Positions 2,951 through 5,560 of a stretch of DNA of 48,616 nucleotides are shown here, one piece after another. Both the position numbers and the translations under genes were made by a program. Under the pieces are notes generated by a model. The model was not told the DNA's origin and did no database searches. It was given only the letters and a program-made list of their open reading frames with translations. The stretch is from Betaproteobacteria bacterium (GTDB lineage Bacteria; Pseudomonadota; Gammaproteobacteria; Burkholderiales; SG8-41): assembly GCA_947476215.1 (NCBI GenBank), contig CANJQI010000014.1:1-48616 (forward strand), written 5' to 3'. Numbering within the stretch: the first letter of the stretch is position 1; the number at the start of each line of letters is the position of its first letter.

Positions 2951-4501
2951 GTGACTCAAGTCCTCGCCCGCAAATGGCGGCCCAAGACTTTCAGCGAACT
3001 GGTAGGCCAGGAGCATGTGGTCAGGGCGTTGACCAATGCGCTGCAGCAGCAGCGCCTGCACCACGCCTATCTGTTTACGGGTACGCGTGGCGTTGGCAAA
3101 ACGACGTTGGCGCGCATCATCGCCAAAGCACTCAATTGCGTAACGGGCGTGACCGCGGAACCGTGCGGCAAGTGCCCGGCGTGCATGGAAATCGATGCCG
3201 GCCGCTTTGTCGATCTGATCGAACTCGACGCCGCGTCGAATACCCAGGTCGATAATATGCGCGACCTGCTCGAAAACGCGCTGTACGCACCGACCAGCGG
3301 GCGATTCAAGGTCTATATCATCGACGAAGTGCACATGCTTTCGCGATCCGCATTCAACGCGATGCTGAAAACGCTGGAGGAACCGCCCGGTCACGTCAAG
3401 TTCGTGCTTGCGACGACTGATCCGCAGAAGATACCGGTGACGGTCCTGTCGAGGTGTCTGCAGTTCAATCTGAAGCAGATTCCACAGCAGCAGATCAAAC
3501 AGCAGTTGAAAAAAATACTCGAGCTGGAAGGTCTGCAAGGCGAAGATGCAGCACTGAATCTGCTGGCGCGCGCCGCGCGCGGCAGCATGCGCGACAGCCT
3601 GAGCCTGCTGGATCAGGCAATTGCGCACGGCGCGGGTCGTGTCGAGCAGCAGGCGGTGCGCGCCATGCTGGGCACGGTCGGGCATGAATACCTGCATGAA
3701 ATTTTAAACGCCCTGCAACAGCACGACGGGGCTGCAATGATCGCGATTGCCGATCGCATGGTGGAACACAGTCAGTCTTTTGAAGCGGCGTTACTCGATC
3801 TCGCGACGTTGTGGCACCGCATAGCACTCGCTCAGACCGTTCCGGAAGCGATCGCGGACGATGATCCGGAGGCTGCCGCCATCAAGCAATTCGCATCGGG
3901 ATTCGATGCGGAAGAAGTTCAGCTGATGTATCAGATCGTTCTTCATGGACGCAACGATATCGGACTGGCACCGGACGATTACGCCGGTTTCACCATGGTG
4001 CTGATGCGCATGCTTGCGTTTGCCCCCGAGCGCGGTGACGGAAAGGCGCGGAAGTCCGTGCCTGCTGCGCGACCTGTGGCGGTTTTGGATTCGGCAGCGC
4101 CGGTATTAAAAAAAAAGCTGATTGACGGCGACTGGGTCGCATTGGTGCAAAAGCTGTCGCTGTCCGGCATGGAGCGCATGCTCGCACACAACTGCGAACT
4201 CGTGTCACGACAGGAGGGACGCATCGAGTTGCGCGTGCCGCACAGTCAGCGTCACCTCAACGACCGCGCGTATCAGGACAGGTTCAGGCTGGCACTGGAA
4301 CAGCACCTTGGAACCAAGATACAGCTAGACATCTCCATCGGTGAGAGCAAGGGCAATACGGTGGCGGAAGTCCGCAGTCGCGACGATCAAAAACAGTTGG
4401 ATGCGGCAAAGGTGGCGATAAATCAAGACCCCTTCGTCCGCGATTTGCGCGACAATCTGGACGCCCGCGTGGTGTCGTCGACAATTAAGCCGCTGAAATA
4501 G
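2951..4501 (+). CDS. dnaX: DNA polymerase III subunits tau and gamma
   Basis: Clamp-loader ATPase of the replicative polymerase. The N-terminus has Walker A GTRGVGKTT, a four-Cys zinc module (C..CGKCPAC), Walker B IIDEVHML, the SRC sensor block SRCLQFNL and domain III. The C-terminal part (about residues 395-516) resembles tau domain V, with a SQRHLNDR motif, which contacts the alpha subunit. At 516 residues it is shorter than E. coli tau (643), mainly through a short linker. The start is GTG; the 3' end is followed 15 nt later by ybaB in an apparent operon. A nine-A tract at codons 386-389 gives a probable route to a shorter gamma product (separate entry). Confidence 0.97.
   Translation: MTQVLARKWRPKTFSELVGQEHVVRALTNALQQQRLHHAYLFTGTRGVGKTTLARIIAKALNCVTGVTAEPCGKCPACMEIDAGRFVDLIELDAASNTQVDNMRDLLENALYAPTSGRFKVYIIDEVHMLSRSAFNAMLKTLEEPPGHVKFVLATTDPQKIPVTVLSRCLQFNLKQIPQQQIKQQLKKILELEGLQGEDAALNLLARAARGSMRDSLSLLDQAIAHGAGRVEQQAVRAMLGTVGHEYLHEILNALQQHDGAAMIAIADRMVEHSQSFEAALLDLATLWHRIALAQTVPEAIADDDPEAAAIKQFASGFDAEEVQLMYQIVLHGRNDIGLAPDDYAGFTMVLMRMLAFAPERGDGKARKSVPAARPVAVLDSAAPVLKKKLIDGDWVALVQKLSLSGMERMLAHNCELVSRQEGRIELRVPHSQRHLNDRAYQDRFRLALEQHLGTKIQLDISIGESKGNTVAEVRSRDDQKQLDAAKVAINQDPFVRDLRDNLDARVVSSTIKPLK
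4108..4126 (+). promoter_or_regulatory. Putative dnaX A9 slippery site producing gamma
   Basis: Nine consecutive A residues (4108-4116) follow TT and precede GCTGATTGA, reading TTA AAA AAA AAG CTG in the tau frame. A -1 shift gives K-K-K-A-D then TGA; a +1 shift gives K-K-S then TGA, so both alternative frames stop within a few codons. The truncated product would be about 389-391 residues and retains domains I-III. E. coli uses A-AAA-AAG with ribosomal frameshifting and Thermus uses an A9 tract with transcriptional slippage at the equivalent place (family knowledge). Which mechanism acts here cannot be told from sequence. Confidence 0.7.
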
Positions 4502-4516: not shown

Positions 4517-4840
4517 ATGAAAGGTAGTCTGGCAGGGATAATGAAGCAGGCGCAGCAGATGCAGGAGAACATGAAGCGCATGCAGGAGCAACTGGCGATC
4601 GTCGAAGTTGAAGGGCAGTCGGGTGCGGGCATGGTCAAAGTGACAATGACCTGCCGGCACGATGTCAAACGAGTGTCTATCGACGACAGCTTGCTCAAAG
4701 ACGACAAGGACATGCTCGAAGATCTGATCGCGGCTGCGATCAATGACGCCGTGCGGCGGGTTGAGGTAACGGTACAGGAGAAGATGGGAGGCATGACCGC
4801 CGGACTGGGTTTGCCGCCGGGCTTTAAAATGCCGTTCTAA
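4517..4840 (+). CDS. ybaB: YbaB/EbfC family nucleoid-associated protein
   Basis: Small DNA-binding protein that forms a dimer with a tweezer-like fold and associates with the nucleoid. The 107 residues match the family in length and in layout: an N-terminal helix rich in Met and Gln ([15 protein letters not shown]), the core with [10 protein letters not shown], and a C-terminal [16 protein letters not shown] tail. AAAGGAG precedes the ATG. It lies between dnaX and recR, the usual conserved order, and is probably transcribed with dnaX. The precise cellular role of the family is unsettled. Confidence 0.96.
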
Positions 4841-4954: not shown

Positions 4955-5560
4955 ATGAAAAGTCCTTCCTCTCTAGAAGCATTGATAGAAGCGCTGCGCT
5001 GTCTTCCCGGCGTCGGGCCCAAGTCGGCGCAGCGCATGGCCTATCATCTGCTGCAGCGCGATCAGGCTGGCGCGTCGCGTCTGGCGGCGGCCCTCGGCCG
5101 ATCCCTGGAAGTCATACGGCACTGCGAACGGTGCAATACCTACACCGAGGAACAGATTTGCGTGCTTTGCCGCTCCGCGCGCCGCGATGCGCACAGCCTG
5201 TGCGTGGTAGAAACGCCGGCGGATATGCTGATGATGGAACAGGCGGAGTGTTACCATGGGTTGTACTTTGTGCTGATGGGCAGATTGTCGCCGCTGGACA
5301 GAATAGGGCCCAGAGACATACATTTGGACCGACTGCTCAAGCGTGCGGAAGACGGACTGGTGCGGGAGGTTATCGTGGCGACAAATTTTACTGTGGAAGG
5401 CGAAGCGACCGCGCATTACATCAGCGAGTTATTGCTGGTGCGCGGGCTCAAGGTCAGCCGTATCGCGCGCGGCCTTCCGGTCGGAGGCGAGCTCGAACAC
5501 GTGGACAGCGGCACACTCGCGCAGGCGGTATTTGAACGCCGCGCGGTTGAACCCTCCTGA
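4955..5560 (+). CDS. recR: Recombination mediator protein RecR
   Basis: RecFOR-pathway protein that helps load RecA on gapped DNA. The 201 residues match the family length. Visible in order: a helix-hairpin-helix ([17 protein letters not shown]), a four-Cys zinc module ([16 protein letters not shown]), and a Toprim domain with [12 protein letters not shown] and later [15 protein letters not shown]. The ATG follows the heptad array without a clear Shine-Dalgarno sequence. It is third in the dnaX-ybaB-recR order and ends 3 nt before rluB, suggesting coupled translation with that gene. Confidence 0.97.

Follow-up and report, generated by a model that had tools for sequence, protein, structure and literature searches.

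In the dnaX gene of a betaproteobacterium (Betaproteobacteria bacterium, contig CANJQI010000014.1; the window analysed is the whole stretch of 48,616 nucleotides), a run of nine adenines lies late in a single long reading frame. The question is whether this one gene encodes two DNA polymerase III subunits, the long tau and a shorter gamma, and by what kind of slippage the second would be made. Two such sites in dnaX are established cases, the A9 tract of Thermus, where slippage is transcriptional, and the A6G site of E. coli (PMC1088944; PMC5009743). Transcripts of the Thermus type are heterogeneous in their number of A residues, and about half of the product is gamma (PMC1088944; PMC5009743). 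Comparison of the sequences suggests that the gene described here very probably gives both subunits, tau as the long form and gamma as the short one, by means of its A9 site.

The A9 tract and its position in DnaX

The gene (2951..4501, forward strand) has a GTG start and encodes a tau subunit of 516 amino acids in one zero-frame ORF, identified from the ORF list and by matches to PF13177, PF22608, PF12169 and PF12170 in Pfam and to TIGR02397 and the gamma/tau models in NCBIfam. Domain III, the clamp-loader collar (PF12169; residues 231-356; 3641..4018, forward strand), is the last domain that gamma would retain; domain V, which binds the alpha polymerase subunit (PF12170; residues 392-512; 4124..4486, forward strand), would be absent from it. 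The Pfam search gave no separate match to domain IV in this protein. Among named organisms, the DnaX proteins closest to it come from betaproteobacteria. The two ORFs 3' of dnaX, at 4517-4840 and 4955-5560, are presumably YbaB/EbfC-like and recR-like, respectively, names that we assign by recognition and gene order.

The tract itself (4108..4116, forward strand) spans codons 386-389 (TTA AAA AAA AAG) and sits in the linker immediately ahead of domain V. Its flanks are those that the initial annotation had described, TT on the 5' side (4106-4107) and GCTGATTGA on the 3' side (4117-4125). Counted from the GTG at 2951, the zero frame reads TTA AAA AAA AAG CTG ATT GAC across the tract. In the -1 frame the sequence after the tract is GCT GAT TGA, with its stop at 4123..4125 (forward strand), which would be reached by one added A or by a ribosomal -1 slip. 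In the +1 frame a TGA follows immediately (4119..4121, forward strand), derived from the CTG codon 3' of the run, and would be reached by the loss of one A or the gain of two. Two heptamers are contained in the sequence: A_AAA_AAA (4108-4114, forward strand) lies within the tract, and A_AAA_AAG (4111..4117, forward strand), a candidate site for ribosomal -1 slipping, is in the same phase as in E. coli dnaX. A short repeat, GCGAC/GTCGC, is found at 4128-4140 and is unremarkable by fold rank.

As the slip site lies between domains III and V, slipping would yield a gamma of 391 residues. The products were modelled for each transcript length. Transcripts with nine or twelve A residues are predicted to give tau (516 and 517 amino acids, respectively), an A11 transcript a protein of 390 amino acids ending in LKKKS, and an A8 transcript one of 389 amino acids ending in LKKS. 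An A10 transcript and a ribosomal -1 slip are predicted to give an identical protein of 391 amino acids, ending in VLKKKAD. The modelled range of 389-391 amino acids agrees with the gamma of about 390 residues originally proposed. As the addition of one A by RNA polymerase and a ribosomal -1 slip lead to the same 391-residue protein, the main product cannot tell the two mechanisms apart; on these models, only the KKKS and KKS C-termini, or length variants among cDNAs, would distinguish a transcriptional from a ribosomal slip.

The A9 run and the -1 stop compared among relatives

The dnaX genes of the family were compared in a set of 29 from five genera (g1, g2, g3, g4 and g7), many of them from draft genomes. 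Exactly nine A residues in the same phase (xxA AAA AAA AAy) are present in 23 of these, namely this dnaX and 22 relatives. The base 3' of the run depends on the genus: genes of g1 have G, those of g2, g3 and g7 have C, and those of g4 have T. The A_AAA_AAG heptamer accordingly occurs in every g1 gene with A9. The residue ahead of the run may be L, V, S, A or P, yet its codon always ends in A, whereas A-ending codons make up only 4-15% in the A9 genes. Both lysines of the run are always encoded by AAA, which accounts for only 8-81% of lysine codons in the rest of these genes; the last residue of the run is K or N. The joint probability of these codon choices is tiny by a calculation that ignores shared ancestry. 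Retention of a poly-lysine linker at the protein level was therefore rejected, as the bases are constant and the residues vary.

The two off-frame stops behave differently. A -1 stop falls within three codons of the run in 21/23 A9 genes, compared with 6% as the within-gene background, whereas a +1 stop does so in 3/23, against a background of 11%; the +1 stop of this gene is common to only two of the 22 other A9 genes. The initial annotation had drawn attention to stops in both other frames. Both are indeed present here, but selection for the +1 stop was rejected because its frequency in the relatives is at background, and only the -1 stop appears to be selected. The latter is mostly TGA (TAA in L014, L018, L020 and L112), and its distance from the run varies from one to four codons (seven in L013), shifting with local indels. 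Among the nine codons that lead up to the domain V tryptophan, a -1 stop is present in 22/23 A9 genes but in only 3/21 tract-free genes of the sister genera g5, g6, g8 and g9 (Fisher p = 3e-8, uncorrected for relatedness). These statistics ignore phylogenetic non-independence; even so, the base 3' of the run, the residue ahead of it and the type of stop codon all turn over, which argues that the conservation is active. Judged from this comparison, the A9 run and the -1 stop are kept by selection on nucleotides and not on residues, and there is a high probability that selection maintains a recoding site here, by whichever route.

In a tree of domains I-III, the A9 genes fall in a part of the family that excludes g5, g6, g8 and g9, none of which has the tract. 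Within the A9 part, the tract is absent from L021 and from the long branch L022/L114, and is shortened to A7 in L003 and to A6G in L011, the sister of which (L127) has A9. As the tract is lacking in some g3 and g7 relatives, gamma formed by slipping would be dispensable in some lineages. One further candidate loss, L128 (genome G085, filed under g2), is doubtful, as its DnaX groups with family f48 in a wider tree; the placement of this locus (G085:C45:19500-22300) may reflect contamination of a draft genome or transfer.

Polymerase or ribosomal slippage as possible mechanisms

Runs of A can arise randomly, lysines are frequent in linkers and this linker is variable, and so an ordinary lysine-rich linker or a chance run without a recoding role was considered. 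Counted over both strands, the 5.75 Mb assembly has one A11 and ten runs of exactly nine A residues, whereas simple Markov estimates made on the window would predict 21-38 A9 runs. Several of the A9 runs lie in open frames, so that the run is by itself no proof of function. In favour of a role, the A9 of dnaX is the sole A9 of the assembly in three related genomes (G029, G034 and G035). An accidental run was nevertheless rejected because of the in-phase recurrence, the codon choice and the enrichment of the -1 stop. Conservation of nucleotides and not of residues, the frequency of that stop (21/23 against 6%) and its scarcity in the tract-free sister genera leave the absence of any recoding role highly improbable. 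It is also conceivable that slippage is real but yields a short product with no function as a subunit, the premature stops merely cutting the amount of tau or destabilising the mRNA. The loss of the tract in L021, L022/L114 and the four sister genera would accord with this. However, the cut falls between domains III and V, as in known gamma, the stop stays near the run and so limits the number of foreign residues, and a mere expression penalty needs no conserved site; this explanation is improbable, if less so than an accidental run.

The more serious alternative is a ribosomal -1 frameshift of the E. coli type, in which a backslip on A_AAA_AAG or A_AAA_AAA would end at the -1 TGA and give the same 391-residue gamma from A9 transcripts. 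The heptamer lies in the exact E. coli phase, the direction of the shift is single and conserved, and the -1 stop is retained in the A6G gene L011. On the other hand, nine A residues are unnecessary for such a site. The run is fixed at nine, although six or seven would suffice for the heptamer, and the base after it differs by genus (G, C or T), both of which argue against a purely ribosomal site; the C or T found in g2, g3, g4 and g7 creates heptamers with a lower tendency to shift in E. coli (PMC5009743). Stimulators were sought by ranking Shine-Dalgarno-like elements and 40-nt folds in the 23 A9 genes, L003 and L011. In the positive control, E. coli dnaX, both were detected (ranks of 0.013 for the Shine-Dalgarno element and 0.03 for the fold). 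At this tract, neither a Shine-Dalgarno-like element upstream (rank 0.44) nor a stable stem-loop directly downstream (rank 0.35) stood out, nor did any stimulator in the other A9 genes, L003 or L011, and no shared fold was evident by eye. A gene for tRNA-Lys(CUU) in the genome also counts against this explanation, which we regard as unlikely overall.

The lysine tRNAs were located with an anticodon-arm pattern, a looser pattern having mostly caught other tRNAs. Besides its tRNA-Lys(CUU) gene, this draft assembly gave no match to tRNA-Lys(UUU), which was found in most relatives. Among genomes with a detected tRNA-Lys, the CUU form is present in 21/29 from the A9 genera (g1-g4 and g7) compared with 4/34 from g5, g6, g8 and g9. 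The possession of two lysine tRNAs, including one dedicated to AAG, has been suggested as a possible reason why the polymerase rather than the ribosome slips in Thermus (PMC5009743), and with that suggestion the distribution counts in favour of transcriptional slippage. The genome of L011, in which dnaX has A6G only, also has tRNA-Lys(CUU), which counts against it. As a general predictor of A9, tRNA-Lys(CUU) holds inside the family but fails across the order: in family f50, it is absent by this pattern and A9 occurs in 3/3 sampled members.

Three further points weigh against slippage by the polymerase. By a rule of thumb from GeneTack, one conserved direction of shift indicates a ribosomal mechanism (PMC3711429), and a single direction (-1) is conserved here; A_AAA_AAG is present in all of the g1 genes with A9; and Thermus has stops in both frames, whereas one is conserved here. 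In favour of the polymerase, the extra A residues in Thermus occur in diminishing proportion (PMC5009743), and selection of a -1 stop agrees with this. Taken together, slippage by RNA polymerase, as in Thermus, is favoured over ribosomal slipping and is probably, though by no means certainly, the mechanism. The polymerase would slip on the nine A residues to give transcripts with extra or fewer of them, and transcripts with nine or twelve would encode tau. With one extra A the ribosome would find itself in the -1 frame, stop two codons later and release the 391-residue gamma, which would retain the ATPase and collar domains and lose the alpha-binding domain. From the sequence of the tract, its position between domains and the conservation of the run and -1 stop, we infer that there is slippage, mainly during transcription, and that gamma enters the clamp loaders; any ratio of tau to gamma would likewise be a prediction.

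Four further nine-base A9/T9 runs of this genome (L117, L119, L121 and L123) lie in long open frames that resemble, by eye, topoisomerase III, a TctC-type binding protein, a Card1/Can2-like CRISPR accessory protein and glutamyl-tRNA synthetase.

Turnover across the order and comparison with known dnaX genes

Other families of the order contributed about 105 dnaX genes. Runs of A8-A10 after codon 333 were found in 15 of them, and in ten of these (L223, L225, L227, L231, L233, L235, L239, L245, L284 and L157) a -1 stop comes within three codons. The order-level tree shows at least 16 changes in the state of the tract, so that deep ancestry with many losses is indistinguishable from repeated gain. 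In L154 and L264 (family f13 at the level of the order), an A10 run is followed at once by a stop in the +1 frame (CTGA) and not until seven codons later by one in the -1 frame, a preference opposite to that of the A9 family. Runs of A9 or A10 near the end of domain III were also seen in dnaX genes L079, L080, L085, L098, L047 and L054, from Opitutaceae, a UBP6 genome, Planctomycetota and others; in L079 the A10 is a little upstream of the zero-frame stop.

The loci L011 (genome G001) and L127 (genome G006) encode near-identical DnaX proteins and differ in having A6G and A9G, with the -1 TGA retained in both. They are a natural pair for a change of slippage mechanism. It is tempting, if speculative, to suggest that dnaX slippage on A runs is an old or repeatedly regained route to gamma across this betaproteobacterial order, overlooked since its product is shorter than the annotated protein, and that lineages may swap polymerase slippage (A9) for ribosomal slippage (A6G, as in L011 beside its A9 sister L127) and back by few base changes.

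A search of open-licence literature found no description of A9 slippage in the dnaX of betaproteobacteria. Baranov et al. set truncating slip sites aside for want of new coding sequence to compare (PMC1088944), and screens for disrupted ORFs miss such sites (PMC4066793). Here, a truncating site could be detected by scoring the nucleotide conservation of the run jointly with the off-frame stop. The Thermus-type arrangement would thereby be extended to many betaproteobacteria, with loss and turnover visible inside one family, and close natural pairs (A9 and A6G, or A9 and none) bear on whether gamma matters and on when transcriptional becomes ribosomal slippage.

The 'reverse' dnaX genes recorded by GeneTack (PMC3711429) share a poly-A slip tract with this gene but differ in that gamma is in frame 0 and tau is produced by slippage, mostly at A10; here tau is in frame 0. 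These reverse genes use -1 shifts, mostly at poly-A (PMC3711429). Ten dnaX genes of family f20 (genera g28 and g97; L147 at G054:C20:409500-412400, L290, L306, L313-L317, L321 and L322) stop in frame 0 at 423-462 amino acids, the size of gamma; domain V runs on in an overlapping +1 frame, and there is no poly-A. The nucleotide motif xGG GGR GAR, in which xGG encodes W, G or R, lies just ahead of the frame-0 stop in 10/10, and from these sequences it looks as though tau needs a +1 shift.

The initial annotation had likened the site to both Thermus A9 and E. coli A6G, set in a different surrounding sequence. The likeness to Thermus holds for the selected site, and the gene is closer to E. coli than was claimed, with A_AAA_AAG in phase at 4111-4117, though stimulators were undetected. 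It has in common with E. coli dnaX the same heptamer and phase, a -1 stop soon after and the predicted loss of the alpha-binding domain; it differs in three additional A residues, the lack of detected stimulators, the lack of a domain IV match and the presence of a tRNA-Lys(CUU) gene, the E. coli type having a sole tRNA-Lys with a UUU anticodon. With the dnaX of Thermus thermophilus (PMC1088944; PMC5009743) it shares one tau ORF and a sense-strand A9 towards the 3' end of the gene. Off-frame stops close to the run are present in this genome, as is a lysine tRNA gene dedicated to AAG, and a truncated gamma is expected here. Unlike Thermus, it has only the -1 stop conserved in its relatives and a run that contains A_AAA_AAG, and it belongs to a betaproteobacterial lineage, in which slippage is predicted from sequence.
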